Assembly (NCBI GenBank): GCA_902775835.1
Contig: CACYNZ010000038.1
Location: 1-15,930 of the forward strand
From: an uncultured Eubacteriales bacterium
GTDB lineage: Bacteria > Bacillota_A > Clostridia > Christensenellales > Aristaeellaceae
Length of the DNA stretch: 15,930 nt
Direction of reading: 5' to 3'
The first letter of the stretch is position 1, and the number at the start of each line of letters is the position of its first letter. The position numbers and the translations under genes are program-made. Shown here piece after piece: positions 1 through 15,177 of the stretch. Below the pieces are notes generated by a model. That model was not told the origin of the DNA and ran no database searches. It was given only the letters and a program-made list of their open reading frames with translations.

Positions 1-2771
1 GCGGAATGGTCAAAATCGTCAAAGCAGGCATTCCAGGCGTCCACGGCGTCCCGGACTGCTGTGCTCTGGGTCTTTTCCCGGTAGGAAAGAAGCTGCTCCC
101 GCACTCCCTGGCGCTGCTGGCGGATGGACAATGCCATGCCCAGGCTGAACTCAGCATTGTTTTCAAACAGGGAATTAGACCAGGCAGGCCCGTGTCCCTG
201 CTGATTGACGGTGTAAGGGATACCCGGCATGGCCGAGCCCCAGGCCTGAGAACATCCGGTGGCGTTGGCCCAGAACACCCTGTCCCCGTAAAGCTGGGTC
301 AGAAGCTTGGCATACGGAGTTTCCCCGCAGCCGGCGCATGCGGCAGAGAATTCCAGCAACGGCCGGCGGAACTGACTGCCCTTGACAGTGTGGGGATCGA
401 ACAGGTCCTTTTTCTCCGGCAGGGAAAGAGCGTATTCCCAGGCGGCGGAAGTATCCGTCGCACTGGCCGCCGGCGTCATCTCCAGTGCCTTTTCCCTGGC
501 AGGGCAGACGTTCTGGCAGCTGCCACAGCCGGTACAGTCCGCCTGGCTGATCTGGAGAGTAAAGAACAGACCCGCGGCCTGCTTCCCCCTGGCAGGAACA
601 ACCTGCATGCCCTCGGGCATAGCTGCGGTTTCCTCCTCTGTCAGCAGATAGGGCCGGATGACGGCATGGGGACAGACATAGCTGCAGCGGTTGCACTGCA
701 GACATGCATCGTTCTTCCATACAGGGACACGCTGGGCAATGCCGCGCTTTTCATAGGCGGTCAGACCCATGTCCATAATGCCGTCCTTGTATTTCATCAG
801 GCGGCTGACGGGCAGATCGTCACCTTTCTGGGCATTCAGGGGTTCCAGGATCTCCGTGACCACCGCGGGCACGTTTCTGCGAGGCGATGCCGCTTCCTGT
901 ACGTCCGCCCATGCCGCCGGGACCGGCACTTCCCGGACGGAAGCAATCCCGGCATCGATGGCTGCCAGATTCCGCCGGACTACCTCCTCACCCTTGGCAA
1001 AGTAGGTTTTTTCCGCCGCGGCCTTCATAAAGCTCACCGCGTCCTCTTCCGGGATGACAGGCATCAGGTGGAAGAACGCCGCCTGCAGCACCATGTTGAA
1101 ATGGCCTCCAAGGCCCAGTTCACGCGCGGCCCGGGCCGCGTCAATGACATAAAACCGGATATGCCGGCGTGCAATTTCCCGCTTGACGGCGGCCGGCAGA
1201 CGGCTTTCAAGCTCCTCACCTTCCCATGGACAGTTCAGCAGGAAGATGCCGCCCTCCTTGATCTCGGATACGATATCGTACCGTTCGATATAGGTGGGAT
1301 TGTGGCAGGCAATGAAATCTGCCGATTTGACATAATAGGAGGAACGGATCGGCTGGTCAGCGAAGCGCAGATGGCTCTTGGTGACCCCATAGGATTTTTT
1401 GGCGTCATATTCAAAATATGCCTGAGCGAACCGGGATGTGTGGGAATTGATGATTTCCACGGTATTTTTGTTTGCGCCGACAGTACCATCGGACCCGAGC
1501 CCCCAGAACTTACAGCTGACAAGCCCCTTTGCTTCGGGGCGGACACTTTTATCCTCCGTCAGCGAAAGGTGCGTTACGTCGTCCTCGATGCCGATGGTGA
1601 AGGAATTCAGGGGTGAGGCTTTTTTCAGGTTTTCAAACACCGCGGCAATCTGGCCGGGAGTCGTGTCTTTGGATGACAGTCCGTAGCGGCCGCCCACCAG
1701 GGTGATTTCCGGCCTGGCACGCAGGGCACTGCAGACGTCCAGGTACAAAGGATCCCCGGCGCTGCCCATCTCCTTGGTGCGGTCCAGTACAGCCACGGAC
1801 CGGCAGGAGTCAGGAATGGCATCCACGAAACGACAGATGTCAAAGGGTCGGTATAGGTGGACCTGAACAAAGCCTGTCTTTTCTCCCCGTGCGTTGAGAT
1901 AATCCACGGTTTCCCGGATGCAGCCGGAGACGGAGCCCATGGCGACGATTACCCGATCGGCATCCGGTGCGCCGTAATAGTTGAACAGGTGGTACTCCCT
2001 GCCCGTCAGGCTGGAAATGCGGTTCATGTAATCTTCCACGATCCCGGGCAGGGCAGCATAATCGCCGTTGTTGGCCTCCCGGACCTGGAAGTAGATGTCC
2101 GGATTCTGGACCGTTGCCCGGATCATCGGATGCTCGGGATTCAGAGCCTGAGCCCGGAAGGCGTCCAGGGCGTCCATATCCACCAGATCCCGGAGGGCGG
2201 CGTAGTCCATTTCCTCCACCTTGTTGATTTCGTGGGATGTGCGGAAGCCGTCAAAGAAATGTATGAATGGAATCCGGGCCCTGATGGCCGCCAGATGGGC
2301 GACGCCTGCCAGGTCCATCACTTCCTGCACGTCTCCGGTGGAAAGCATGGCAAAGCCGGTCTGCCGGCAGTTCATCACGTCGGAATGGTCCCCGAAAATG
2401 GACAGGGCATGGGTCCCCACCGTGCGGCTGGCCACATGAAGCACGCCTGGCAGACGTTCCCCCGCAATGCGGTGCATGGTGGGGATCATCAGCATCAGTC
2501 CCTGGGAGGATGTAAAGCTGGAGGCCAGCGCGCCGGTTTCCAGTGCGCCGTGGACGGCGGCAATGGCGCCGGATTCCGCCTGCATTTCCACCAGACGGAC
2601 CGGCTGTCCGAAAATGTTCTTTTTCCCCTTGGCAGACCAGACGTCGGTCTTGCCGGCCATGGGAGAAGAAGGGGTAATGGGATAGATGGCGGCGATTTCC
2701 GTAAAGGCATAGGCGATATAGGCCGCGGCTTCATTGCCGTCCATGGTGACATATTTGCGCTGTTCAGACAT
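1..2771 (-). CDS. nifJ: Pyruvate:ferredoxin (flavodoxin) oxidoreductase, C-terminus beyond left edge
   Basis: Interconverts pyruvate and CoA with acetyl-CoA and CO2, using ferredoxin as electron carrier, in the cytoplasm. My translation gives 923 residues, and about 250 of the usual 1,170-1,190 are missing off the window. Seen: YPITPSSPMA near residue 30; VEMQAESGA near 62 (the thiamine-activating Glu); the ALSIFGDHSDVM block typical of NifJ; two [4Fe-4S] ferredoxin motifs, CLQCNRCSYVCP (about 689-700) and CTGCGSCQNVCP (about 745-756); the cysteine-rich CAGCGETPY of the thiamine-diphosphate domain near 811; and GPAWSNSLFENNAEF near the edge. The ATG is 9 nt after GGGAGG (2781-2786). It overlaps the previous gene's stop by 8 nt, so the two are probably translationally coupled. 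Last visible gene of the T-box operon. The family call is firm, but the in vivo substrate (pyruvate or another 2-oxo acid) and direction are not settled by sequence. Confidence 0.95.
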   Translation of the reverse strand, partial: MSEQRKYVTMDGNEAAAYIAYAFTEIAAIYPITPSSPMAGKTDVWSAKGKKNIFGQPVRLVEMQAESGAIAAVHGALETGALASSFTSSQGLMLMIPTMHRIAGERLPGVLHVASRTVGTHALSIFGDHSDVMNCRQTGFAMLSTGDVQEVMDLAGVAHLAAIRARIPFIHFFDGFRTSHEINKVEEMDYAALRDLVDMDALDAFRAQALNPEHPMIRATVQNPDIYFQVREANNGDYAALPGIVEDYMNRISSLTGREYHLFNYYGAPDADRVIVAMGSVSGCIRETVDYLNARGEKTGFVQVHLYRPFDICRFVDAIPDSCRSVAVLDRTKEMGSAGDPLYLDVCSALRARPEITLVGGRYGLSSKDTTPGQIAAVFENLKKASPLNSFTIGIEDDVTHLSLTEDKSVRPEAKGLVSCKFWGLGSDGTVGANKNTVEIINSHTSRFAQAYFEYDAKKSYGVTKSHLRFADQPIRSSYYVKSADFIACHNPTYIERYDIVSEIKEGGIFLLNCPWEGEELESRLPAAVKREIARRHIRFYVIDAARAARELGLGGHFNMVLQAAFFHLMPVIPEEDAVSFMKAAAEKTYFAKGEEVVRRNLAAIDAGIASVREVPVPAAWADVQEAASPRRNVPAVVTEILEPLNAQKGDDLPVSRLMKYKDGIMDMGLTAYEKRGIAQRVPVWKNDACLQCNRCSYVCPHAVIRPYLLTEEETAAMPEGMQVVPARGKQAAGLFFTLQISQADCTGCGSCQNVCPAREKALEMTPAASATDTSAAWEYALSLPEKKDLFDPHTVKGSQFRRPLLEFSAACAGCGETPYAKLLTQLYGDRVFWANATGCSQAWGSAMPGIPYTVNQQGHGPAWSNSLFENNAEFSLGMALSIRQQRQGVREQLLSYREKTQSTAVRDAVDAWNACFDDFDHS

Positions 2772-3597
2772 CTGAAGAGTCCTCCCTGTCGTCAAAGGAT
2801 AATTGATACAGATCCGCACAGTTCCTCCACAGGATCTTTTCCCGCTCCTCCTCCGTCAGGGGAAGGGCATTGAGAAAATCCAGATCCGTTCCCTGGGGCC
2901 ACATGGGATAGTCGGTCCCGAACAGAACCCTGTCCGCCCCGAAAGCCCGGATGATTTCCATGGCCCGTTCCGGCTTCAGCCAGTAAAAGGAGGAAGACGT
3001 GTCCACCATCAGATTCGGGAACTCCGGAAGCAGCCTCTCGGCCCGGTCCCATACGCTCCAGCCGCCGAAATGCGCCCCGATCATTTTCAGCTTCGGGAAG
3101 GATTTCAGCACCCGGGCAATCCGCTCCGGATTGGAATAATCGTAACGGTGGTCCCCGGTATGCACCAGGATCGGCATACCGTATTCCTCGCAGAGTTCGT
3201 AAATGGCGCAGGCCTTTGGGCTGTCCGCTTCAAAGCGCTGGAAGTCCGGGTGGATCTTGATGCCGTGCAGCCCCAGGGCCCGGATCTCCTCCAGGTCTGC
3301 CCGGAGGCAGGGAGATTCCGGATGCAGCGCCCCAAGGCCGATAAACGCGCCCTGTGCGCCGCGCTGCGCGTCCGCGATGAAAGTGTTTATGGAATGTACC
3401 TGAGCGGGAGTGGTGGCGACGGAGTGCACCACGAAGTGCGTCACCCCTGCTTTCCGCCCGGCAGAAAGCAGCGTGGCGACTGTGCCGTCATAATGATCTT
3501 CCGGCAGGCCTTCGTAAAACCGGTCCACCGTCGAAACCGCCTTCCGGGCGATTTTTTCCGGGTAGATATGACAGTGGCTGTCAATAATTCTCGTCAT
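2764..3597 (-). CDS. Amidohydrolase-2 family metal-dependent hydrolase or decarboxylase
   Basis: A 277-residue TIM-barrel protein of the amidohydrolase-2 group, whose members are metal-dependent hydrolases or non-oxidative decarboxylases of small acids. Visible ligand candidates: H8 and H10 in DSHCH, K114/H116 in GIKIHPDF, H146 in ILVHTGDH, H176 in GAHFGG and D229 in LFGTDYPMW. The C-terminus has the usual helix ending in WRNCADLYQL. The frame stays open upstream to 3714, but that stretch lies inside the preceding gene. The ATG at 3597 starts the conserved MTRIIDSHCH and has a modest AAAGG about 12 nt upstream. The gene lies 28 nt after the acyl-CoA synthetase fusion and overlaps the oxidoreductase start by 8 nt. 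Full length for the family. Substrate unknown; a role on an acid or acid derivative handled by the same operon is inference. Confidence 0.85.
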   Translation of the reverse strand: MTRIIDSHCHIYPEKIARKAVSTVDRFYEGLPEDHYDGTVATLLSAGRKAGVTHFVVHSVATTPAQVHSINTFIADAQRGAQGAFIGLGALHPESPCLRADLEEIRALGLHGIKIHPDFQRFEADSPKACAIYELCEEYGMPILVHTGDHRYDYSNPERIARVLKSFPKLKMIGAHFGGWSVWDRAERLLPEFPNLMVDTSSSFYWLKPERAMEIIRAFGADRVLFGTDYPMWPQGTDLDFLNALPLTEEEREKILWRNCADLYQLSFDDREDSSDV

Positions 3598-3625
3598 GTG
3601 TCCGATGCCTTTCGCTAAAGGGCCC

Positions 3626-6124
3626 TCAGGCCGTTTCGATACCTGCCGCCTTTTCCAGACCCAGCTTTTTGATGGCTTCCTCCCGCATTTTGTATTTCTG
3701 AATCTTGCCCGCATCGTTCATGGGGAATCCCTTGACAAATTCGATGTATTTGGGCACCTTGTGCTTGGCCATATGGTCCAGGATGTATTTTTTCATTTCG
3801 TCGGCCGTCATGGTCTCGTCTTCCTTCAGGATGATGCAGGCCATGATTTCCTCGCCCATTGCCTGGTCCGGCACACCGATGACCTGTACATCGCTGACCT
3901 TGGGATGCGTATAGATAAATTCTTCGATTTCCTTGGGGTAAATGTTCTCGCCGCCGCGGATGATCATGTCCTTCAGGCGGCCGGTGATCCGGTAGTTGCC
4001 CTCGGGCGTGCGGCAGGCCAGGTCGCCGGTGTGCAGCCAGCCATCCTTGTCGATGGCAGCCGCGGTGGCTTTGGGCATCTTGTAATACCCCTTCATGATG
4101 TTGTAACCCCGGGCCACAAATTCGCCGATCACCTCGTCCGGACAGTCCTCACCGGTTTCGGGGTCCACGATTTTGCATTCCACATCGGGGAAAGCGCTGC
4201 CGACAGTGGACACACGCACCTCCAGGGGGTCGGTGGTCCGGCTCATGGTACAGCCGGGAGAGGCTTCGGTCTGTCCGTAGACGATGACGATTTCAGGCAT
4301 GTGCATTTTTTCCACCACATCCCGCATAACGGCGATAGGGCAAGGACTGCCGGCCATGATACCGGTGCGCATGTGACTGAAGTCCGTCTTGGGGAAGTCC
4401 GGATGGGACAGCATGGCGATAAACATGGTGGGAACGCCGTGGAATGCGGTGATGTGCTCCCGGTGGATGCAGGCCAGGGATGACTTGGGCGAAAAATACG
4501 GGATGGGCAGGATGGTGCCGCCGTGTGTCATGGTGGCGGTCATGGCCAGCACCATGCCAAAGCAGTGGAACATGGGCACCTGGATCATCATCCGGTCCTC
4601 GGTGGACAGGTCCATGCCATCCCCGATACTTTTGCCGTCGTTGACGATGTTGTAATGCGTCAGCATGACACCCTTGGGAAAGCCGGTGGTGCCGGAAGTG
4701 TACTGCATGTTGCATACGTCGTTGACGTTGACGGCGGCTGCCAGACGGCGGATCTCCTCGACAGGGGTCCGGGATGCACAGGCCAGCGCATCATTCCAGG
4801 TAAGGCCGCCCTTCATCCGGAAGCCCACAGTAATCACGTTGCGCAGGAACGGGAGTCTGCGGGCATGCAGAGGTTCGCCGGGCTTGCGGTCCGCAAGTTC
4901 CGGACAGAGCTCTTCGATGATGCCCTTATAGTCGGAATCCCGGTAGCCATCGATCATGACCAGGGTATGGGTATCCGACTGGCGCAGAAGGTATTCGGCC
5001 TCATGGATTTTATAGGCAGTGTTCATGGTCACCAGGATCGCGCCGATTTTGGTGGTGGCCCAGAAGGTCAGGAACCACTGGGGCACGTTGGTAGCCCAGA
5101 TGGTCACTTTGGACCCCGGCTTCACGCCCAGTGAGACCAGGGCACGGGCAAATTCGTCCACATCGTCCCGGAACTGGCTGTAGGTCCGGGTGTAATCCAG
5201 GGTTGTATAGCGGATCGCCGTCTGGTCGGGGAAATTTTCCACCATGGTGTCCAGCACCTGAGAGAATGTTTTGTCAATCAGGACACCTTTTTTCCACACA
5301 TAGCGGCCCTTGTGCCGGTTGCTCCAGTACAGGTGATGGTGGCCGCGCTTGGTGTTGATATAGGCTTTCATGGTGTTTTCATAATGGGTCAGGATGATTT
5401 CGGGATCCTCCAGACCTGCGATCCAGTCCGGGTTCCACAGAAGGGAAACGAACCCGTCATAGTTGACGCTCCGCAGAGCGTTCATCAGATCGCCCAGGGG
5501 CAGATCCCCGTCGCCGATCAGCTCGGGGCAGAGGACTCCGTCCTTCATCCGGCCGTCCCGGATCTGCACATGCCGTACATAGGCCCCCAGGTTTGTGATG
5601 GTCTTTTCCGGGTCCTCCCCGGCCAGGAAGCAGGTATGATCCATCTTCCACATGGCTGCCAGGCGGTCATCCGCGAAGCGGTTCAGCATATCCCGCAGGC
5701 GCGAGGTGTCCGCATAGGGGGCGCAGGTCTCCACAAGGAGGGTCACCGGGCGCTCCCGGGTCCTCTCCAGCAGTCCCGAAAGGACGCGCGCGTTTTCCTC
5801 ATCATCGTCTGCTGCGGCATGGACGCTGACGCAGGGGATACCCAGATTCATCGCAGTCTCCAGGCATTCATCAAATTCCCAGAGAAAACCGGGCTCCGTC
5901 AGCCCAAGAACCGTGCTGATGCAGGGAATTTCAAGCCCCAGGCTGATCAGGTTTCTGCGGACACCGGCAGCCCGGTCCGGATTGGCGGGACTGCTTTTGC
6001 CCTGAAAAACCGAGCTCTTGATATCGTACAGCTCGATACCCTGCATCCGCGTTCCTTCCGCCACAGCGCAGAATTCATCCCACCCGAGTCGGTTCCAGTT
6101 CTGGATCGAAAAAGAAAGCTTCAC
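3626..6124 (-). CDS. Fusion: sugar-isomerase-like TIM barrel plus medium-chain-type acyl-CoA synthetase
   Basis: An 832-residue two-domain protein. Residues 1 to about 255 form an AP-endonuclease-2/sugar phosphate isomerase TIM barrel, with candidate ligands E132 (LLVETCAP), D162 (KMDHT) and H185 (VRHVQIRD). The expected late Glu appears to be Leu229 (VSLLWNPDW). Residues about 270-832 are an adenylate-forming acyl-CoA synthetase close to B. subtilis YngI and ACSF2: A3 YTSGTTGFPKG (475-485), A5 YGQTEASPG (616-624), TGD (699-701), the hinge block RITGRLKDMIIRGGEN (712-727) and catalytic-type Lys807 in GKIQK. All core motifs are intact, so ATP-dependent formation of acyl-AMP then acyl-CoA is expected. 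The start is GTG, with GGGGAGG (6134-6140) 9 nt upstream; the next Met is residue 27. It lies 20 nt after the preceding gene. No frame break joins the domains, so the fusion is real in this sequence. The acid substrate is unknown. Confidence 0.93.
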   Translation of the reverse strand: MKLSFSIQNWNRLGWDEFCAVAEGTRMQGIELYDIKSSVFQGKSSPANPDRAAGVRRNLISLGLEIPCISTVLGLTEPGFLWEFDECLETAMNLGIPCVSVHAAADDDEENARVLSGLLERTRERPVTLLVETCAPYADTSRLRDMLNRFADDRLAAMWKMDHTCFLAGEDPEKTITNLGAYVRHVQIRDGRMKDGVLCPELIGDGDLPLGDLMNALRSVNYDGFVSLLWNPDWIAGLEDPEIILTHYENTMKAYINTKRGHHHLYWSNRHKGRYVWKKGVLIDKTFSQVLDTMVENFPDQTAIRYTTLDYTRTYSQFRDDVDEFARALVSLGVKPGSKVTIWATNVPQWFLTFWATTKIGAILVTMNTAYKIHEAEYLLRQSDTHTLVMIDGYRDSDYKGIIEELCPELADRKPGEPLHARRLPFLRNVITVGFRMKGGLTWNDALACASRTPVEEIRRLAAAVNVNDVCNMQYTSGTTGFPKGVMLTHYNIVNDGKSIGDGMDLSTEDRMMIQVPMFHCFGMVLAMTATMTHGGTILPIPYFSPKSSLACIHREHITAFHGVPTMFIAMLSHPDFPKTDFSHMRTGIMAGSPCPIAVMRDVVEKMHMPEIVIVYGQTEASPGCTMSRTTDPLEVRVSTVGSAFPDVECKIVDPETGEDCPDEVIGEFVARGYNIMKGYYKMPKATAAAIDKDGWLHTGDLACRTPEGNYRITGRLKDMIIRGGENIYPKEIEEFIYTHPKVSDVQVIGVPDQAMGEEIMACIILKEDETMTADEMKKYILDHMAKHKVPKYIEFVKGFPMNDAGKIQKYKMREEAIKKLGLEKAAGIETA

Positions 6125-6133
6125 GGTTGTATA

Positions 6134-6140
6134 CCTCCCC
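6134..6140 (-). promoter_or_regulatory. Ribosome binding site fixing a GTG start
   Basis: On the minus strand GGGGAGG lies 9 nt before GTG at 6124-6122. No ATG is close, so this site supports the GTG start of the fusion gene and a full-length TIM-barrel domain. Confidence 0.8.
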
Positions 6141-6144
6141 TGGA

Positions 6145-7539
6145 TCAGGTTTCCTCATAGGCGATTTTGTTCAAGGCGCTGATGTATGCGCGGATGGACG
6201 CGCCGATGATATCCGTGGAAATGCCATTGCCGGAATAGACTCTTCCGCCGGAGCGGAGCTTGACAATGGCGCTTCCCATTGCATCGCGTCCCTCGGTGAC
6301 CGTCTGGATCTGGAAATCGTCCAGCTCGTAATGGTGTCCGATGATCTTCTCGATTGCCTGGAAAGCGGCATCAATGGGGCCGTCCCCGATGCCGACTCCC
6401 CTCATCTGGATACCGTCCTTTTCTATCAGGATATTGGCGGTGGCGGTGATGATATTTCCGCTGTTGATGACGTAATTCTGGATTTTATAGGTAGAGGGCA
6501 CCTGCATGGCTGCGGAAGCGATAATGGCGTCCAGTTCCTTGGTGCCGACAAAATGCTTCTTTTCCGCCACCCGGCGGAAGGCCTCGTACACCCGGGCATT
6601 GTCCTCCTCGCTCAGGTCGTAGCCCAGCTGGTGGACCACCTGGATCACCTCGGAGATGGAGTCACTGCTGTCCAGACACACGCCGGGGGCGTCGTCCAGG
6701 CCAACGCTGTTGAAGCGGGAAGGCGTCTCTTCCGGCTGGAGGATCTTGCCGATCTGGACGATGCCCTGGTGCAGCTCCGTCATGCGCAGCCCGGAGTAAA
6801 TGTCCAGGTCATTGCCCTTGGCCTCCAGAAACCTGGCGGCGGCTTCCAGGGTTGGGAACCCGGCGGCGTGCGCGGTGCACTTGATACCGCAGGCACCTTC
6901 TCTGACGGCGGACGCCGCGCATGCCAGGCCCATGGACAGGGCATCGCTTACCTGTACATACAGATCTGTTTCAGCCAGTTTCGGCACACGCGCCTTCAGC
7001 TCACGCACGAAAGTGCCAAATTCATCCGCCAGCATAATGCCTGCGGTATCGCACAGTGTGACGGCGCAGGCGCCGCCTTCGATGGCCGTGGAAATCATGC
7101 TTGCCAGGAAATCGATTTCAGCCCGGGTCGCGTCCACGGCGGTAACCTCCACCCGTTCACTGTAGAACCGGGCCTGGCGCACCTGACGGTCCACTTCCTC
7201 GAGTATCGCGGGAGCTTTTTTATGGCAGGAATATTCCATCAGCACGGTCGAAACCGGGCAAAGCAGATTCAGGGAGGGGATTTTCGCCCCGCGGATGCTC
7301 TCCCATGTTTCTTCAATATTTCCTTCGGAAAGCTCCACCGCGGCGCTGATCCGGCAGGAAATCATGGATGCTATGGTCCGGTTGGCCAGCTGGTCCGCCT
7401 TGCTTCCGGAAATGGGAGGAACCTCCAGGGCATCCACCTTCAGCCGGTCCAGGCTCCGTGCGATTTCCAGCTTTTCCTTAAAGGTCATTTCCCTGTTTTC
7501 CTGGCGCAGCGTCATATCGATCAGTTGCAGTTTCTTCAT
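6145..7539 (-). CDS. 2-isopropylmalate synthase-like protein with regulatory domain but without the metal ligands
   Basis: A 464-residue protein built like alpha-isopropylmalate/homocitrate/citramalate synthases: an HMGL-like TIM barrel (about 1-265), a linker, and a LeuA-type C-terminal dimer/regulatory domain (about 345-460; VTEGRDAMGSAIVKL, GNGISTDIIGASIRAY). CDTAG (163-167) of the barrel is kept. The signature DTTLRDGEQ reads DMTLRQEN (8-15), so the metal-binding Asp is Gln13. The HxHND block reads VQVSDA (195-200), so both His are Val. The late Asn of the ERAGN block also seems lost. It is therefore probably not an ordinary synthase; it may be a pseudoenzyme, an effector-binding partner, or an enzyme with changed chemistry. 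ATG at 7539 follows AAAGGAG (7547-7553) by 7 nt. The frame is open upstream, but that part is the T-box terminator. First gene of the operon. Confidence 0.85.
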   Translation of the reverse strand: MKKLQLIDMTLRQENREMTFKEKLEIARSLDRLKVDALEVPPISGSKADQLANRTIASMISCRISAAVELSEGNIEETWESIRGAKIPSLNLLCPVSTVLMEYSCHKKAPAILEEVDRQVRQARFYSERVEVTAVDATRAEIDFLASMISTAIEGGACAVTLCDTAGIMLADEFGTFVRELKARVPKLAETDLYVQVSDALSMGLACAASAVREGACGIKCTAHAAGFPTLEAAARFLEAKGNDLDIYSGLRMTELHQGIVQIGKILQPEETPSRFNSVGLDDAPGVCLDSSDSISEVIQVVHQLGYDLSEEDNARVYEAFRRVAEKKHFVGTKELDAIIASAAMQVPSTYKIQNYVINSGNIITATANILIEKDGIQMRGVGIGDGPIDAAFQAIEKIIGHHYELDDFQIQTVTEGRDAMGSAIVKLRSGGRVYSGNGISTDIIGASIRAYISALNKIAYEET

Positions 7540-7600
7540 CGTGATTCTCCTTTTTCCGGAGCCGCAGCTCCTGTTTCTTTGAGACGTCCCGGCCTGAATG

Positions 7601-7640
7601 AAAAAATCCCGGAGACCCATGACAGCATGGATCTCCGGGA
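7601..7640 (-). terminator. T-box regulated intrinsic terminator
   Basis: A 15-bp stem (7640-7626 with 7621-7607, one G-U pair) closes a 4-nt loop and is followed by six T residues on the minus strand (7606-7601). It ends 61 nt before the first start codon, as expected for the attenuator of a T-box leader. Confidence 0.93.
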
Positions 7641-7893
7641 CGATCAGACCTGAAACAGATTCTTTTTCGCGGTACCACCCGGCTTGCCGCTTACGCGGCC
7701 GCTCAGCAGTGCTCCATCAAGCACCTGACCATGATTACGGGGTCAGCCGGATCTCCATACACAACCATAGGCCTTCCGGAGATCTGCTCGGGCAGGAGAC
7801 TGCGTTTTGCACACACACCGGCTCGCACCGTCCGCCGGCTCTCTTCAGTGGTTGACAATCCGCATGGTGCCGTCAAAGCATTTCTATGAAATT
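7601..7893 (-). ncRNA. T-box leader (tRNA-sensing riboswitch)
   Basis: Minus-strand leader between the promoter and the first gene. The T-box core GGGTGGTACCGCG lies at 7680-7668. Upstream are AGAGAG and the GGTGCGAGCC segment of the stem I distal region (about 7822-7846), a GATCTCC/GGAGATC stem, a GTGCT/AGCAC stem and CCGC-GTAA-GCGG just before the T-box. The segment CCGGG next to the T-box can pair with CCCGG in the 5' arm of the terminator, the expected antiterminator switch. Uncharged cognate tRNA should favour read-through. I could not fix the specifier codon: in the stretch 7787-7806 CGC, GCA or GTC can be read depending on how stem I is folded, so the amino acid is open. Confidence 0.9.
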
Positions 7894-7900
7894 AAAATGG

Positions 7901-7929
7901 ACTTTACTCGAAGCGTGAGAATTTGTCAA
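7901..7929 (-). promoter_or_regulatory. Promoter of the T-box operon
   Basis: Minus-strand TTGACA (7929-7924), a 17-nt spacer and TAAAGT (7906-7901). Transcription would start near 7893, leaving about 350 nt of leader before the first gene. The -35 matches consensus fully and the -10 matches 4 of 6. Confidence 0.75.
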
Positions 7930-7978: not shown

Positions 7979-8008
7979 TTGACAAAAAAACGCTCCGTTT
8001 GTTACAAT
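7979..8008 (+). promoter_or_regulatory. Promoter facing the membrane-protein genes
   Basis: TTGACA (7979-7984), an 18-nt spacer and TACAAT (8003-8008). It is divergent from the T-box operon promoter, with 49 bp between the two -35 boxes, so a bound regulator could affect both. The predicted start is near 8015, leaving about 225 nt before the first membrane-protein gene. Confidence 0.75.
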
Positions 8009-8240: not shown

Positions 8241-8957
8241 ATGTCATTCAGCCCTAAAATGCAGATAACTGATTATCTGGCGGCCTTCAGCCGCCGTTAC
8301 CAGAGAAAAAAGATGACCAATCTGGCAGTCTCTGCCCTGATCACCTTTCTTGGGATCAGCTCGTTCCTTTACGGACTCCAGCTGGAGCCGATTCCCACAA
8401 TTTTCCGCTGGATGACGGTGGATGGAACACTGTTTACTACATTCGGTGCAGTTTTCTTCATTGTCGTCAACATCGTGGAAATGGTGCGAAAAACGGAGCT
8501 GACGCGGGTATCGGTGTATTATATCCGCCTTTCTTCCGCAGTGGCGGAATCGGTCATTATTTCCGTTGTATTGGTTAGTCAGTTTTCATTTTTCCCGGAG
8601 CATCTTCCCCTCTTTGACCGTTATGATTCCTTCGTAATGCATGTACTTGTTCCCCTGCTGGGCATTCTGTCCTTCATGATCAACGATTCTCCCATCGGCA
8701 GGCTGCGCCCCCTGAGTTACTGGCGCGGCACCTGGTTTGTGACCTGCTACGGTGTGGTCATTCTGTCGCTGATCGGGACAGGCAGGCTCCCTTCCGAGTC
8801 CATCCCTTATCCCTTCCTCAACTATAAGGATAACGGCTGGCTGATGTTTTTCTTGGCCTTTGTGTTTATCTACGGCTGCGGCTATCTGATGGCCCGGGGT
8901 ATTTCCAATGGAAATCGCAGACTCTCATGGCTGTGGTTCGCTGGAATCACACGCTGA
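8241..8957 (+). CDS. Six-helix integral membrane protein, tentatively Pr6Pr/FAR-17a-like
   Basis: A 238-residue hydrophobic protein of unknown function. I see six likely membrane segments, near residues 26-46, 62-82, 98-118, 131-149, 162-181 and 199-219, with a basic N-terminus (RRYQRKK) and a basic end. The order of features resembles the Pr6Pr/FAR-17a-like membrane family: a DG...F..FGAVFFIVVN segment, H134 with P138 in MHVLVPLL, an Asp after that helix (D149), a W...Y segment and IPYPFLNY near 188-195. This match is from memory of the pattern and is tentative. ATG at 8241 follows GTGAGGAT. It lies 27 nt before the YwaF-like gene, so the two probably form an operon behind the 7979-8008 promoter. 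Confidence 0.75.
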   Translation: MSFSPKMQITDYLAAFSRRYQRKKMTNLAVSALITFLGISSFLYGLQLEPIPTIFRWMTVDGTLFTTFGAVFFIVVNIVEMVRKTELTRVSVYYIRLSSAVAESVIISVVLVSQFSFFPEHLPLFDRYDSFVMHVLVPLLGILSFMINDSPIGRLRPLSYWRGTWFVTCYGVVILSLIGTGRLPSESIPYPFLNYKDNGWLMFFLAFVFIYGCGYLMARGISNGNRRLSWLWFAGITR

Positions 8958-8984
8958 GCAACAACCTGAGCAAGGAGGGGTACC

Positions 8985-9797
8985 ATGTTTTCTACCGGAC
9001 ATCTGTTATGGATCGGCATCTCTTTCGCGCTGATTGCTGCTGGGACACTGGCATGCTTTCGCTTCCGGCCGTCGGAGGATCGTCTTGTGAAGACCTGCCT
9101 GGCTTTAGGAGCTCTTTCTGAAGCGATAAAGCTTTTCAGCGTCATGCGCATTCTTCCAATGGTGGATATCGCTGTGAACGGCACTGCTCTTGATTATACC
9201 TATGCCGGACAGTATACACCCTATCTGGAAATGGCTGACCTTCCTCTGGAACTCTGCTCACTGCAGATTCTGTTCATGGCATCGATGCTGCTCCTCAAAA
9301 AGCCGGAGGCGAAATCCCGCATGCGGGCTCTGATGTTCGTAACAGGAACCATCGGGGGTGTGCTGGGCATCGCGCTGGCCGAGGTAACCGTGGACTATTC
9401 CACAGTACGCGATTATTTCGCATCGCCCCGCATTTATCAGTTTTTCCTGTATCATTCGATGATTGTCATGCTGGGAATCTATCTGGGATTCAGAAAAGAC
9501 AGCGGTGTCTCTCTTCGCAACTATAAGGAAACCATGCTGATGATGCTTGCTATGGACCTTCCCACGTTTTATCTTAACTCCGTGTTTTCACAGCCTGTAT
9601 ATGTTGCCGGCAAACCCACAGGAATCCTCTATCGGACGAATTTCTTTTCTTCCTATGTCAACCCGCTTGGCCTTGTTCTAACGGAACGCTGGCAATGGCT
9701 GGCTTACCTGGTCATACGTATGATCATTGCCGCAGGTGTGATTGCTTTCCTGCTCCTGCTGACAACGCGCTGGCATGCAAAGTCCAAGAAAGCATAA
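8985..9797 (+). CDS. YwaF/TMEM164-like integral membrane protein
   Basis: A 270-residue membrane protein with about seven hydrophobic segments (roughly 7-24, 36-54, 88-104, 115-133, 151-168, 185-200 and 238-260). LPLELCSLQ (86-94, Cys91) and FFLYHSMIV (153-161, His157) match the pattern of the bacterial YwaF family, related to animal TMEM164. Human TMEM164 has been reported as a cysteine-dependent acyltransferase of ether lipids, and Cys91/His157 would be the matching pair, but the bacterial role is unknown and I do not assign one. ATG at 8985 has AAGGAGG about 6 nt upstream. It is the second gene of a two-gene unit and is followed directly by a strong terminator. Confidence 0.8.
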   Translation: MFSTGHLLWIGISFALIAAGTLACFRFRPSEDRLVKTCLALGALSEAIKLFSVMRILPMVDIAVNGTALDYTYAGQYTPYLEMADLPLELCSLQILFMASMLLLKKPEAKSRMRALMFVTGTIGGVLGIALAEVTVDYSTVRDYFASPRIYQFFLYHSMIVMLGIYLGFRKDSGVSLRNYKETMLMMLAMDLPTFYLNSVFSQPVYVAGKPTGILYRTNFFSSYVNPLGLVLTERWQWLAYLVIRMIIAAGVIAFLLLLTTRWHAKSKKA

Positions 9798-10341: not shown

Positions 10342-12480
10342 TCAGACAGAAGCCGGCACCGGCTTTGTTCTGATGACGCAGCGGATTCCATCCGGACACT
10401 GAATATGCGGCTCCTCTCCCCTGCGAAGGTCACAGGTGAGAAGGCCGTGCGGTGTAATAAGCTCCACATGTGCCTGCTGCAGCCCCAGAAGTGAAGGGGA
10501 CAGGGCAAGGCCTTTCATCCCGGGCTCGATGATCTCAAGTCCCAGAAGAGCCTTCGGCAGTGAATACAGCGGTGTTCCGCCCCAGGCATGACTGTGGTCA
10601 AACTGATAACCTGGCTCCGGTTTGACAAACCCCTCCGGAAGGCCTTTCGGAAAAGCAGCAACCGGCGCTTTCCAGCGTTCAAGGAGCGGCAGCGTGTACG
10701 TTTCCCGAAGCCCCAGCCGGAATATGGCCTCGAACAGAAAATGCAGAAAATAGGGCTGCACAGGTCCTTCGATTTCATCCAGCATGACCCGTTTCACAAG
10801 TTCCCGTCCCAGAGCTTCATCACATATGCCCACACAGGCAGCCAGTATATTGCTGTGCTTCAGGCAGTAGCGCTTCTCCACGTTCCGCGGCATCCACTGA
10901 CCGAGAAGGGATTCCGGGGTCGGCGTGTTCAGTCCTTCAATGTAGGCTCCCCGTCCGGGATCAAACAGAAGACTGTTGACTGCCTGCCGAAGCGTTTTCG
11001 CACGGGACGCGCATCTGACGGCTTCCGCGTCCAGGGAGAGGATGGAAAAGATTTCGCCTGCCGCTTTCAATGCGTCATAATAGAACAGATTCAGGCATGT
11101 CTGCCCCAGGGCTTTCGGCGGATGATGCAGGGAAATGCCGTCAATATAGATCCAGTCCACGAACATATAATCCGGCGGTGTTTCAAGAAGATCATTGCTT
11201 CCCAGATATCCGGAAAACCGTTTCAGCAGCAGACGCAGAGCAGGCAGGCATCGTACCAGAAGCGATGCATTTCCCGTCATCCAGTACAGATCCCGAAGCA
11301 TCCGCACCCATATAAGACTGTAGGAGGTATGAAACATCCGCCCGTTTTCGCGTTCGAGGGATACCGCCGTCCTCTCCACATCGAATGCTGCCAGACGCAG
11401 ATCCCCGAAGGAAAAAGGCGTCATAAGGCTCTGTATATAGTAATCGCCCGTACACGCAAGCGGTTCGCAGTGCCGGGGGCTGTCCAGATGATGGGTCTGC
11501 CGGCAGATGCGCAGCGTCCCGCGGCACACCGAAAGAACCTGTGTGAGCTGCGCATCATCGACCGTGGTCTTTGCCTCCCGGGATACGGGATAGCAGGTTT
11601 CTATAAACCGGATTTCAATCCTTGCCGGAAACTGGGATCGGTTATGCCAGGATACAGCCAGGTTTCCGGCACTGTGAAGGGTAAAGCCGCGATACGCTCC
11701 GCTGCCGGAAAAGGTCATGTCCTCCCGTGTTCCCTTCTCCTCCTGTTCCCGGCACTGCACCGTAACTGCCACCTCGCCCTCCGCCTCAGCACGCACCGAA
11801 ACAAAGCCTGCCATTATGCGCTCCATCTCAAGGACCATGCTGCCCTGTTCGCCGGGCATAAGCACAAGGTCTGAGCCTTCCGGTGCCACCATATGCTCCT
11901 CACGGACCGGAATCGGTGCACTGCGGGCCTGCCATATATCCGGAACCACTTCCGACGGAATGTACGGCTCCGGAAGAATCCGGCCGTCATACATGCAGGG
12001 CGTACAGTAGGCTCCATTCATGCGGCACATCCAGGTACTGTCCGTGCCAAATCGCATTATGCTTCCATCCGGCATCACGGCCTCACCCCGCATCATGAAA
12101 CCGCCATGTCCTCTGGAATACTCACAGATCTGCACAGGCATCATCCGCACACGTGCCAGAAACGTGACTGTTTTCTCAGCGCAGTCCAGCTCCGTTTCAT
12201 AGGCATACTGCTCCCTGGCTGTCTCATTGCCGATAAAATCCCCGCCGGCGCAGGGCGGTCCGGATATGACGGCCTGGCCATTCAGGAAAAGCTGAAAGGC
12301 AGTATCCCCGCTGACACGAAGACGTATTCCTGCGGGAGCCTGTTCCAGATGATAGGTACGCATGAATTCGGCAACCGTATAATGCCCGCAGGACTGGTCT
12401 GCAAGCGCGCTGTAAACCGTGGTCTGGTGTCCGGGATACATCGAGTGCGGAATCCAGATCCATGTGTCTGTATCGTACAT
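10342..12480 (-). CDS. GH78-like (alpha-L-rhamnosidase-related) glycoside hydrolase
   Basis: A 712-residue protein with beta-rich N-terminal domains (about 1-305) and an (alpha/alpha)6-barrel-like catalytic domain (about 310-640), then a short beta domain. D333, E339 and D346 in the DSPRHCEPLACTGD block line up with the catalytic block of GH78 (typically DCPxRDERLGWTGD), and HSHAWGG (629-635) followed by LGLEI..PG...LALSP matches the family's C-terminal pattern. Family differences: His337 replaces the usual Arg and Cys343 the usual Trp, so the substrate may differ from plain rhamnosides. No signal peptide is seen, so it is probably cytoplasmic and acts on imported glycosides. Two ATGs lie 6 nt apart. 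I chose 12480 because AAAGGAG is 7 nt from it but only 1 nt from 12486. It is divergent from the GH3 gene. Confidence 0.82.
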   Translation of the reverse strand: MYDTDTWIWIPHSMYPGHQTTVYSALADQSCGHYTVAEFMRTYHLEQAPAGIRLRVSGDTAFQLFLNGQAVISGPPCAGGDFIGNETAREQYAYETELDCAEKTVTFLARVRMMPVQICEYSRGHGGFMMRGEAVMPDGSIMRFGTDSTWMCRMNGAYCTPCMYDGRILPEPYIPSEVVPDIWQARSAPIPVREEHMVAPEGSDLVLMPGEQGSMVLEMERIMAGFVSVRAEAEGEVAVTVQCREQEEKGTREDMTFSGSGAYRGFTLHSAGNLAVSWHNRSQFPARIEIRFIETCYPVSREAKTTVDDAQLTQVLSVCRGTLRICRQTHHLDSPRHCEPLACTGDYYIQSLMTPFSFGDLRLAAFDVERTAVSLERENGRMFHTSYSLIWVRMLRDLYWMTGNASLLVRCLPALRLLLKRFSGYLGSNDLLETPPDYMFVDWIYIDGISLHHPPKALGQTCLNLFYYDALKAAGEIFSILSLDAEAVRCASRAKTLRQAVNSLLFDPGRGAYIEGLNTPTPESLLGQWMPRNVEKRYCLKHSNILAACVGICDEALGRELVKRVMLDEIEGPVQPYFLHFLFEAIFRLGLRETYTLPLLERWKAPVAAFPKGLPEGFVKPEPGYQFDHSHAWGGTPLYSLPKALLGLEIIEPGMKGLALSPSLLGLQQAHVELITPHGLLTCDLRRGEEPHIQCPDGIRCVIRTKPVPASV

Positions 12481-12487
12481 GTCCATT

Positions 12488-12494
12488 CTCCTTT
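12488..12494 (-). promoter_or_regulatory. Ribosome binding site deciding between two ATGs
   Basis: Minus-strand AAAGGAG. It is 7 nt before the ATG at 12480 but only 1 nt before the ATG at 12486, so the downstream ATG is the better start. Confidence 0.75.
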
Positions 12495-12536
12495 CTGGAC
12501 ATTCATTTCTCGTTCGCATGAAAGATCGTTTCCCTG

Positions 12537-12566
12537 ATTGTATACATTCCTGTCCGCCTGAGTCAA
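12537..12566 (-). promoter_or_regulatory. Promoter of the GH78-like gene
   Basis: Minus-strand TTGACT (12566-12561), an 18-nt spacer and TACAAT (12542-12537). The -35 box lies between the arms of an inverted repeat (12549-12583), so repression by a bound regulator is plausible. Confidence 0.65.
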
Positions 12567-12583
12567 CGGTCTTTCCGGACAGG
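12549..12583. promoter_or_regulatory. Inverted repeat, candidate operator
   Basis: CCTGTCCG (12549-12556) and CGGACAGG (12576-12583) are exact inverse complements, 19 nt apart, and bracket the -35 box of the minus-strand promoter. The placement suits an operator in the divergent GH78-like/GH3 intergenic region. The regulator is not in the window. Confidence 0.4.
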
Positions 12584-12752
12584 CATATGCTTTCTGCAGG
12601 CATCCGGCAGTATTCCGTCTGTTTCCAGCATGCCGCGCCCCGCTATTTCTTTCATCCGTCGAAGGAAAAGCCGCATTACCGGCGAAAAAGAACAAAGCGC
12701 TCTGCGCATCCTGCAATGCAGGCAGCTGCACTGCCGCCTGAACAATTCTCAC

Positions 12753-12768: not shown

Positions 12769-15177
12769 ATGGAACGCTGGACAAGAGCCAATTACCTGCC
12801 CGGACTGCCTCTGGGGCGCGACGGCAGGCGTGTGACCGCCAGTCCCGAGCACATCTCCATCGCCAGGGAAGCAGCCAAAGAAGGCATGGTGCTTCTCAAG
12901 AATGAAAACCATACCCTTCCCCTGCAGAAGGGCACCCGTATCGCGCTGTTCGGAAAAGCCACCTTCGACTATGTCAAGGGCGGCGGAGGAAGCGGGGACG
13001 TATACGTGCCGTTCATGCATAATATTCATGACGGATTTATGCAGACGGCTGATCCCTGCACCATCTTTGACGGTACGGTCCGCTATTACCGTGATTACGT
13101 TGACGCACAGTATGCCGCGGGCAGCATGCCGGGCCTGCTTGCAGAACCTGAGCTTCCCGACACGCTTGTGCACGACGCAAGGGCGTTTGCTGACACGGCC
13201 GTTATCTCCATTTCCCGCTATTCCGGCGAAGGGTGGGACCGGAAGACCAGCACCACCCCGCCGCTTGATCCTTCCAGTGACCGCCATCCTGTGGTGGCCG
13301 CCTCCTATGCCATTTTTGAAGACGGTGATTTCTACTTCACATCCGCTGAACGCGCCATGATGGACAAGGTCATTGCCGCGTTCCCCAAAGTCGTCGTTGT
13401 GCTGAATGTAGGCGGCATGGTGGAAACCGAATGGCTGAAACAGAATCAGGGCGTCGGAGCAGTGCTTCTGGCCTGGAACGGGGGCATGGAAGGCGGACTC
13501 GCCGAAGCCGAGCTGATTCTGGGACTGGCCAATCCTTCGGGCAAGCTGTCCGATACCTTTGCCCGGCGCCTGGAAGACTATCCCAGTGCGGACACCTTCT
13601 ATGACTCAGACGACTATGTGGATTACTTTGAAGATATCTATGTCGGATACCGGTATTTCGAGACCATCCCCGGAGCAGCGGAAAAAGTGGTCTATCCGTT
13701 CGGTTACGGTATGTCCTATACAAGTTTTGAGCTGACCGGACAGAAACTGGAGATTCGCAATGATGAAGTGCACGCATCCGTATGCGTGACCAATACCGGT
13801 GCCATGGCCGGCAAGGAAGTGGTGCAGGTCTACTATGAAGCACCACAGGGCCGCCTCGGCAAGCCGGCAAGAGTGCTTGGCGGATACCGGAAAACCCGTC
13901 TGCTCGCGCCCGGGGAAAGCCAGATGATCCATATCTCCTTCCCTGTCAGTCAGATGGCTTCCTATGATGATCTTGGAAAGGTCTGCCGCTCCGCATGGAT
14001 TCTGGAAAAAGGCACCTACCGCTTTCATCTGGGCACCAGTGTCAGGGATACCGCCGTATGCGGCAATGGGCTCACCCTGGATGAAGACAGGATTGTCGAG
14101 CAGCTCACGGCCAGGATGGTTCCCACTTCCCTTTCCCGCCGCATGCTCGCCGACGGCAGTTTTGAGCCCCTGCCCCAGTCCGCTCCCAACAACCCTGCCT
14201 ATACCGCGCTGACTCCTCTGAGTGAGAAGGAGATGCAGGGCCAGATACCGCCAACCCGTGAGGTTCCCCGCCGGACCAGGAGAGTCATAGACCGTCCGCA
14301 GCTGATCGATGTGGCGGAAGGCAGAATGACGCTGGATGCGTTCGTAAGCGCCATGCCTGACGAGGACATTGTCTGGCTCCTGGGCGGTCAGCCGAATACC
14401 GGCCTGGCCAATACCTATGGCTATGGAAACAACGTGCTCTGGGGCATTCCCAACATCATGAGCGCTGACGGGCCTGCGGGCGTCCGCTTTCTGCCCGCCA
14501 CCGGCGTCACCACCACAGCGTTTCCGGTGGAAACGCTTCTGGCCTGTACGTGGGACCCGGACATCTGCTACAGAGTCGGAGCAGCAGGTGCCCTGGAATG
14601 CAAGGAAAACAATATCGGAGCCTGGCTCACGCCTGCTGTGTGCATTCACCGCAATCCCATCTGCGGCCGCAATTTTGAGTATTTCTCCGAAGATCCGCTT
14701 CTGACCGGCAAACAGGCCGCCGCTCTGGTGCGCGGCATTCAGAGCGAACATATCGCCGCAACAGCCAAGCATTTTGCTCTGAACAACAAGGAAAGGAACC
14801 GCAAGAACAGCGATTCCCGGGCTTCCGAACGTGCCATCCGCGAAATCTATCTCAAGCAGTTTGAGATCATCGTGAAAGAATCGGATCCCTGGAGTATCAT
14901 GTCCTCCTACAATATCATCAACGGCCACAGGGCCTCGGAAAACCATGATCTGCTCACAGGCATCCTGCGTGAGGAATGGCATTACGAAGGTATGGTCACC
15001 ACAGACTGGTGGACCAACGGGGAGCACTACAAGGAAGTCATGGCCGGCAATGATATCAAGCTCGGCACCGGTTTCCCGGAGCGCCTGCTCGAAGCAATGG
15101 AAAAGGGCCTGGTGACCCGTGAAGCCATGAACACGGCGGCCAGACATATTCTCGGGCTTATCCTGCATATCGACTGA
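12769..15177 (+). CDS. GH3 beta-glucosidase with swapped domain order
   Basis: An 802-residue retaining beta-glycosidase, expected to release glucose (or a related sugar) from beta-glycosides. The domain order is the reverse of most GH3 enzymes. The alpha/beta sandwich comes first (about 20-310; GMVLLKNENHTLPL, then YPFGYGMSYTSF near 305-317), then a fibronectin-III-like domain (about 320-430), and the TIM barrel comes last (about 515-802). Barrel motifs: SADGPAGVR with D567, R634 and E637 in CGRNFEYFSEDP, K667-H668 in AKHFALNN, and the nucleophile-type D746 in GMVTTDWW. The same layout is known from Ruminococcus albus and Butyrivibrio fibrisolvens enzymes. No signal peptide is seen, so it is probably cytoplasmic. 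Full length and intact. Divergent from the GH78-like gene; ends at a shared terminator. Confidence 0.95.
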   Translation: MERWTRANYLPGLPLGRDGRRVTASPEHISIAREAAKEGMVLLKNENHTLPLQKGTRIALFGKATFDYVKGGGGSGDVYVPFMHNIHDGFMQTADPCTIFDGTVRYYRDYVDAQYAAGSMPGLLAEPELPDTLVHDARAFADTAVISISRYSGEGWDRKTSTTPPLDPSSDRHPVVAASYAIFEDGDFYFTSAERAMMDKVIAAFPKVVVVLNVGGMVETEWLKQNQGVGAVLLAWNGGMEGGLAEAELILGLANPSGKLSDTFARRLEDYPSADTFYDSDDYVDYFEDIYVGYRYFETIPGAAEKVVYPFGYGMSYTSFELTGQKLEIRNDEVHASVCVTNTGAMAGKEVVQVYYEAPQGRLGKPARVLGGYRKTRLLAPGESQMIHISFPVSQMASYDDLGKVCRSAWILEKGTYRFHLGTSVRDTAVCGNGLTLDEDRIVEQLTARMVPTSLSRRMLADGSFEPLPQSAPNNPAYTALTPLSEKEMQGQIPPTREVPRRTRRVIDRPQLIDVAEGRMTLDAFVSAMPDEDIVWLLGGQPNTGLANTYGYGNNVLWGIPNIMSADGPAGVRFLPATGVTTTAFPVETLLACTWDPDICYRVGAAGALECKENNIGAWLTPAVCIHRNPICGRNFEYFSEDPLLTGKQAAALVRGIQSEHIAATAKHFALNNKERNRKNSDSRASERAIREIYLKQFEIIVKESDPWSIMSSYNIINGHRASENHDLLTGILREEWHYEGMVTTDWWTNGEHYKEVMAGNDIKLGTGFPERLLEAMEKGLVTREAMNTAARHILGLILHID

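Follow-up and report, generated by a model that had tools for sequence, protein, structure and literature searches.

Organization of the operon

The DNA analysed here (the window) is a stretch of 15,930 nucleotides, positions 1 to 15,930 of contig CACYNZ010000038.1 in the assembly GCA_902775835.1 of an uncultured Eubacteriales bacterium. Positions 1-7929 hold a minus-strand operon under a T-box leader, encoding a LeuA-like protein, a fusion of a TIM barrel with an acyl-CoA synthetase (TIM-ACS), an amidohydrolase and an oxidoreductase of the pyruvate:ferredoxin oxidoreductase (PFOR) type. We propose that this operon is induced by leucine starvation and makes leucine from isovalerate, a reading to which we give a probability of about 0.82. 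An earlier note on the sequence had described one promoter, a full T-box leader and four packed minus-strand genes in this region, and our annotation agrees with that description.

7901-7929, minus strand: promoter, TTGACA-17-TAAAGT (consensus scan, 10/12 match)
7633-7885, minus strand: T-box leader, from stem I to the antiterminator (Rfam RF00230)
7796-7798, minus strand: specifier codon CUC, leucine (Rfam alignment register and compensatory helix changes in relatives)
7668-7680, minus strand: antiterminator T-box sequence GGGUGGUACCGCG (sequence and Rfam alignment)
7606-7641, minus strand: intrinsic terminator, 16 bp followed by a U run (folding and scan)
6145-7539, minus strand: LeuA-like protein, most likely a pseudoenzyme, 464 residues, HMGL-like barrel and LeuA_dimer domain
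3626-6124, minus strand: fusion of a xylose-isomerase-like TIM barrel (residues about 1-265) and an acyl-CoA synthetase (about 280-820)
2764-3597, minus strand: amidohydrolase, PF04909
1-2771, minus strand: PFOR-type 2-oxoacid:ferredoxin oxidoreductase, running past the window edge (TIGR02176)

In operon order, the first two gaps between genes measure 20 nt and 28 nt, and the last two genes overlap by 8 nt. By family, the operon combines a CoA ligase with a ferredoxin-dependent 2-oxoacid oxidoreductase, of which 923 of about 1170 residues lie in the window. The amidohydrolase start at 3597 was chosen by us; its longest frame begins at 3714. An alternative ATG for the LeuA-like gene at 7620 sits within the terminator and is an unlikely start. 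The consensus scan returned four promoter-like sites in a region of 801 bases, against 0.8 expected. The terminator hairpin (7641-7606) has a folding energy of -29.5 kcal/mol and a z-score of -7.1 against 200 shuffles; the antiterminator segment, folded by itself, was no better than its shuffles (z -0.3).

Recurrence of the LeuA-like and TIM-ACS gene pair

Genome contigs were scanned with a profile built from 18 aligned sequences, which found at least 589 relatives of the LeuA-like gene. The 80 best-scoring, together with 11 from further genomes, make up the 91 loci compared here. The 80 records are from Clostridia except for one from Lentisphaeria (L110), and many bear rumen or gut isolate names. 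In all 91 loci the LeuA-like gene is followed by a TIM domain, and the acyl-CoA synthetase (ACS) part is visible in 88; in the other three (L044, L065 and L099) the fusion is cut by a contig end and the ACS part is out of view. Locus L057 has a gap with another frame between the two genes, and the LeuA-like frame of L037 is broken. The pairing holds at identities down to 42%. The amidohydrolase was found in 29 of the 91 loci and the PFOR in 20. Conservation of the gene order outside this genome, on which the earlier note had let its reading depend, is thus complete for the first two genes, and the whole four-gene order is rarer.

These counts bear on the possibility that the genes are chance neighbours under a T-box, with no joint pathway. 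The amidohydrolase, present in fewer than a third of the loci and unexplained, could be taken that way. For the first two genes the idea is refuted by their pairing in every locus, and also by 41 related genomes, in which the TIM-ACS fusion is present in 11 of the 11 carriers of the LeuA-like gene (two on broken contigs) and, among the 30 non-carriers, is found only in genome G035 and on a probably stray contig in G001. We therefore give chance association almost no credence.

The T-box leader and its leucine specifier

The window leader contains stem I with a specifier loop, the antiterminator T-box sequence and a terminator before the first gene, all of which it shares with the T-boxes of RF00230. 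In a search at permissive settings it aligned to RF00230 over the full model length with 85.4 bits (E = 5.4e-19). This score does not reach the Rfam gathering score of 93, and for that reason a default Rfam scan lists no T-box here. It differs from the RF00230 T-boxes in this low score and in standing before a putative acid-salvage operon. T-box leaders usually precede synthetase, biosynthesis or transport genes.

The specifier codon CUC lies 1 nt before the helix strand UGCC (7794-7791), which is paired with GGCA (7871-7868). On its 3' side, the specifier loop reads CAGUCUCC in the Rfam alignment, followed by the strand UGCC. Among the relatives the bounding helix is GGCA/UGCC in 19 leaders, GGAA/UUCC in 21, GAUA/UAUC in four and GAUG/CAUC in three; an incomplete list of rarer variants holds GGUA/UACC (two), GGCG/CGCC (two) and GGUG/CACC (one). 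Because both helix strands covary while the codon stays CUC or CUG, this register of the specifier is supported. The leader set comprises the window and the 91 loci (n = 92), with at least 300 nt upstream in 89. The T-box motif occurs in 67 of the 92, and our script reads 62 of these as leucine (54 CUC and 8 CUG); the other five (L023-L027), misplaced by the script, read CUC by eye. Reading the specifier codon was a check suggested in the earlier note, which had left both the acid and the amino acid open and had missed the CUC codon as well as the loss of the LeuA-like active site described below. A leucine specifier fits isovalerate and 2-oxoisocaproate, and points to isovalerate and leucine as the acid and the amino acid of the operon.

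In L089 and L107, which have no motif in the near leader, a leucine T-box (CUC) lies further upstream, before successive genes for an oxidoreductase, an aminotransferase, the LeuA-like protein, TIM-ACS and an amidohydrolase. Two T-box-less loci have a short frame about 215 nt before the LeuA-like gene, of 35 codons including nine isoleucines in L097 and of 29 codons including eight leucines in L067. The composition of the latter suggests that the same operon may be controlled there by ribosome-mediated leucine attenuation.

The LeuA-like protein

The LeuA-like protein shares with 2-isopropylmalate synthase LeuA an HMGL-like barrel, a LeuA_dimer domain (107.4 bits against a cut-off of 24.9) and a LeuA-type fold. 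It differs in reaching only half the cut-off score of the LeuA NCBIfam models (best 264.5 bits against 532) and in having lost the metal ligands of the active site. In the window protein the Asp of the RDG motif, both His of the HxH motif and the Asn, which we take to be metal-binding as in the LeuA literature, are all replaced. Residues were counted in 91 rows, the window and 90 loci (L037, whose frame is broken in two, is excluded), with five intact LeuA proteins of the same order as reference. The first His is kept in none of the 91, the second His in one (L057), the Asn in none and the RDG Asp in one (L021), and 88-91 of the 91 rows have lost the NGIGER loop by deletion. Asp8, Asp136 and Arg139 of the barrel are invariant in 91/91, and the Asp and Arg of the EDAxR motif are kept in all 91. 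The best conserved part of these proteins is the C-terminal leucine-binding domain.

The predicted fold has a pLDDT (predicted local distance difference test) of 84.6 and a pTM (predicted template modelling score) of 0.59. Its barrel superimposes on LeuA/isopropylmalate synthase barrels with 2.0 Å, and the top fold matches are LeuA-type structures. Over the full length, superposition on M. tuberculosis LeuA, including the leucine-bound form, gave a root-mean-square deviation of 16-22 Å and a TM-score of about 0.5.

A working isopropylmalate or citramalate synthase was considered and rejected, as the metal site is gone save for single exceptions. Judged from these residues, the protein is most likely a pseudoenzyme that no longer catalyses. 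Alternatively, it could be an active enzyme with a new chemistry other than a metal-dependent aldol condensation, in which case the pathway would exceed a ligase and a reductive carboxylation. The intact barrel and its three invariant residues would be expected of such an enzyme; the near-complete loss of the metal ligands, the deletion of the NGIGER loop in at least 88 rows and the strongest conservation in the leucine-binding domain rather than the barrel all argue against it, and we consider it distinctly unlikely. For a pseudoenzyme, the retained leucine site may sense leucine and exert feedback on the ligase; this is a weaker inference, with about even odds.

The standard leucine pathway in carrier genomes

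Among 32 chosen carriers, LeuB was over its cut-off in two, LeuA proper in one and ilvC in 16, the last including 7/7 carriers of the same genus, one of them partial. Since ilvC is kept while LeuB mostly is not, the gap in those carriers lies at the leucine branch. The same LeuB search matched 14 of 14 control genomes, nine of them over the cut-off. Two kinship sets gave a consistent picture: LeuB was present in 1/7 carriers versus 18/18 non-carriers in the same-genus set (25 genomes; Fisher p = 4e-5) and in 1/28 carriers versus 91/219 non-carriers in the order set (247 genomes; p = 2e-5). Both p values assume independent genomes, an assumption that does not hold for relatives; the sets were drawn round genome G001, perhaps no kin of the window, and several genomes are incomplete. 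Genome G070 was moved out of the order carriers, its match being residues 304-461 only and lying beside leuB; with G070 kept, LeuB is present in 2/29 order carriers (p = 1.5e-4). The contig-edge fragment of G095 was retained as a carrier.

The oxidoreductase

The window PFOR scored 1358.7 bits against TIGR02176 (cut-off 911), and its domain set is that of the family; in score and domains it is like a pyruvate:ferredoxin oxidoreductase. It differs in belonging to a separate clade and in two substitutions of the pyruvate pocket. A tree of 50 rows separates the operon PFORs, as a clade of 18 rows, from the other 32, with a Shimodaira-Hasegawa-like approximate likelihood ratio test (SH-aLRT) support of 100. 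Full-length operon PFORs are encoded in L112-L114. All 16 genomes chosen for carrying a locus PFOR had the operon PFOR (66-79% identical), and 14 of them also had a second fused PFOR (49-64%), in some cases as fragments. Within the set of 41 relatives, the operon type is confined to six carriers and the stray G001 contig. A role of the operon PFOR as the housekeeping copy was considered and set aside, as the tree position and the second copies speak against it.

In D. africanus PFOR, the pocket for the pyruvate methyl group is formed by Leu121, Ala219, Ile843, Asn996 and Met1202, and the carboxylate is bound by Thr31 and Arg114 (PMC5020499). We placed this numbering by motif, in agreement with the solved chains 1b0p and 7plm. 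Thr31 and Arg114 are unchanged in 50/50 rows. The position of Ile843 is Ala in 18/18 operon PFORs and Ile in 32/32 others, and that of Ala219 is Val in 18/18 operon PFORs and Ala in 31/32 others. Leu121 is Leu in 11 and Met in seven of the 18 operon PFORs, and Asn996 is kept in the 17 of 17 in which it is present. Over the four positions compared (Leu121, Ala219, Ile843 and Asn996), the methyl pocket is therefore not conserved in the operon PFOR. The change Ile843Ala would leave space for a bulkier side chain, and we propose that the operon PFOR may act as a reductive carboxylase of isovaleryl-CoA.

In other loci a different oxidoreductase is found. At least one subunit of a multi-subunit 2-oxoacid:ferredoxin oxidoreductase (OFOR) is encoded in 28 of the 91 loci, none of which has the PFOR. 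One cluster, that of L087, was scanned. Its alpha subunit is VorB (541 bits against a cut-off of 399), and downstream come the beta and gamma subunits and then a branched-chain aminotransferase (397 bits, cut-off 250); the aminotransferase cluster occurs in 19 of the 91 loci. 2-Oxoisovalerate ferredoxin oxidoreductase (VOR; VorB, NF005507) replaces the PFOR in related clusters; it differs from it in being multi-subunit, and is absent from the window. At 5030-5695 of L087 there is also a CbiA/ParA-type P-loop ATPase, homologues of which often stand before oxidoreductase subunits (22/91 loci).

The ligase and the oxidoreductase could instead serve acetate salvage, from acetate via acetyl-CoA to pyruvate, with an ordinary PFOR and a T-box that merely ties the operon to leucine synthesis from pyruvate. 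Such a scheme would agree with the curated pyruvate cut-off being passed and with the conservation of Thr31, Arg114 and Asn996. It is opposed by the second fused PFOR in 14/16 of the genomes searched, by the two pocket residues changed in every operon PFOR, by VorB and a branched-chain aminotransferase in place of the PFOR in L087, and by LeuB over the cut-off in only 2/32 chosen carriers. We regard acetate salvage as very unlikely.

The TIM-ACS fusion and related ligases

On its domains and context, the TIM-ACS fusion is proposed to be an isovalerate-CoA ligase. An active isomerase in its TIM domain was considered and rejected, the four expected metal ligands, placed by eye, being complete in only 23 of 76 full-length fusions and degenerate in the window fusion. 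A full fusion is also found in L177 of G035, a genome that encodes LeuB and lacks a close homologue of the LeuA-like gene. In L178 and L180 the ACS and the xylose-isomerase-like TIM protein are encoded by separate adjacent genes, perhaps the ancestral state. Genome G041, which has no LeuA-like gene, has a stand-alone ACS with a T-box motif (one mismatch) and the codon CUG, read by eye.

Extra CoA ligases occur near 28 of the 91 loci. The one scanned (L087, 2709-5000) has helix-turn-helix and cupin domains and is nearest to MbcS, with 443 bits where 850 are needed. T-boxes stand directly before 26 of the extra ligases, and the 24 resolved are nine AUC (Ile), 13 GUA and two GUC (Val); nine more T-boxes with an unassigned next gene comprise four AUC, four GUA and one unresolved, all read by a codon script that misplaced 6/54 before the LeuA-like gene. 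An extra ligase follows 31 of the 32 resolved Ile/Val T-boxes. In a tree of the 30 long-enough ligase rows, the 12 Ile-type and the 18 Val-type ligases each lie on one side of a branch.

S. aureus MbcS activates 2-methylbutyrate and isobutyrate, and hardly isovalerate (PMC10026030). The substrates of MbcS match isoleucine and valine, which would leave isovalerate to the leucine-controlled TIM-ACS. MbcS is the nearest family of the scanned ligase and resembles it in the proposed scavenging of branched short acids as CoA esters; MbcS feeds fatty acid synthesis (PMC10026030), and the scanned ligase differs in scoring under the MbcS cut-off and in bearing the helix-turn-helix and cupin domains.

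A broader specificity is also conceivable, in which the ligase and the oxidoreductase serve several branched (Val, Ile, Leu) or aryl acids and leucine is the signal only. The routes from isobutyrate to valine and from phenylacetic acid to phenylalanine are cited alongside that from isovalerate to leucine (PMC7356843), the OFOR clusters also hold Ile and Val ligases, and the leader frame of L097 is Ile-rich. On the other hand, the ligase clades match the specifiers, so that TIM-ACS remains the leucine ligase in those clusters, and 16 of the 32 chosen carriers retain ilvC, whereas LeuB mostly is not retained. A pathway with leucine as the signal only is in our view unlikely.

Proposed pathway

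Based on these comparisons, we propose the following course for leucine formation from isovalerate. Upon leucine shortage, uncharged tRNA-Leu would pair with the CUC specifier and prevent termination, as in the known T-box mechanism. The acyl-CoA synthetase would then convert isovalerate to isovaleryl-CoA, from which the PFOR-type enzyme, or the VOR-type enzyme in relatives, would form 2-oxoisocaproate with reduced ferredoxin. A branched-chain aminotransferase, which adjoins the operon in some relatives and is presumably encoded elsewhere in the window's genome, would convert 2-oxoisocaproate to leucine. The dead LeuA may be retained as a leucine sensor that restrains the ligase, and the amidohydrolase would be an accessory. 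The reactions, their direction and the sensor role are what we infer from the observed operon anatomy, codon, conservation, clade, pocket residues, co-occurrence and scarcity of LeuB. Salvage of an acid by the ligase and the 2-oxoacid oxidoreductase had already been suggested in the earlier note, and it gains support from the leucine specifier and the recurring order of the LeuA-like and TIM-ACS genes.

Several observations weigh against this pathway. It leaves the amidohydrolase and the TIM domain without an assigned role. The score of the window PFOR is above the cut-off for the pyruvate family, and Ala219Val by itself would make the pocket narrower, opposite to Ile843Ala. Neither PFOR nor OFOR is found near 43 of the 91 loci, many, not all, of which lie at contig ends, and the T-box motif is absent from 22 of the 89 leaders with at least 300 nt upstream. 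The apparent Ile-rich leader peptide of L097 would conflict with a leucine-only role in its lineage. The predicted fold of the LeuA-like protein backs its single domains, and the domain arrangement is without support from the model. Regarding the standard pathway, a LeuB-like match of 255-265 bits, short of the cut-off, is present in each of four more carriers; G008, G049 and G278 have the LeuA-like gene plus LeuB; weaker LeuA-type matches persist in carriers (e.g. G008, G018, G023, G043 and G049); and LeuB is also absent from 128 of the 219 order non-carriers.

A wider scheme can be drawn, in which many gut and rumen Clostridia have dropped the isopropylmalate pathway and use branched-chain volatile acids as the source of leucine (certain lineages also of valine and isoleucine), with one CoA ligase and a matching T-box per acid, a shared oxidoreductase and aminotransferase, and the dead LeuA as a leucine sensor restraining its ligase. 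This scheme is in our judgement as apt to prove wrong as right.

Relation to earlier work

Branched-chain volatile acids have been studied as growth factors of rumen bacteria since the 1960s, and the carboxylation route from isovalerate to leucine in these bacteria is attributed to work by Allison and colleagues from 1962 and 1966 (PMC7356843). An isovalerate route to leucine is also known in methanogens (PMC10658910). According to the introduction of a 2020 paper (PMC7709123), formation of branched-chain amino acids from branched acids, the reverse reaction, 'was not proven yet'. The pathway proposed here has its substrate, chemistry and habitat in common with the route of Allison, which is known from growth and labelling work; it differs in offering a proposed gene set, its regulation and a pseudo-LeuA. 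No description of the gene set, the matched T-boxes or the LeuA pseudoenzyme was found among the papers listed in searches of an open-access library, preprints and most subscription journals being outside its scope.

The operon looks like the missing genetic basis of leucine rebuilding from isovalerate in gut and rumen bacteria. A named gene set with matched T-boxes makes the old branched-acid question directly testable. It could also explain the apparent leucine auxotrophy of uncultured gut bacteria, bears on ruminant nitrogen economy and gut cross-feeding, and may provide an example of a biosynthetic enzyme turned sensor.

Other features in and around the window

A contig of G001 (C193, 3990 bases; locus L167) is 99% identical to window positions 1211-5200. 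Nine further matches of G001 to the window have 63-74% identity over 119-1542 bases or 80-89% identity over 35-55 bases, and G001 was rejected as the genome from which the window comes. C193 is probably a stray, mis-binned contig of G001, which has 8% contamination.

Divergent from the operon, two genes lie at 8241-9797 on the plus strand; the second is TMEM164-like and the first gave no Pfam match. A promoter-like site at 7979-8008 (plus strand) matches the consensus in 11 of 12 positions and would give these genes a leader of about 230 nt, which has no Rfam match at the gathering score. A large protein is encoded at 10342-12603 (minus strand), whose only match, of the rhamnosidase-type hairpin kind, is below the cut-off. 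At 12769-15177 (plus strand) lies a GH3-type glycosidase with swapped Pfam domains, in which the C-terminal domain (40-317) and the Fn3-like domain come first and the N-terminal domain (559-795) stands last.

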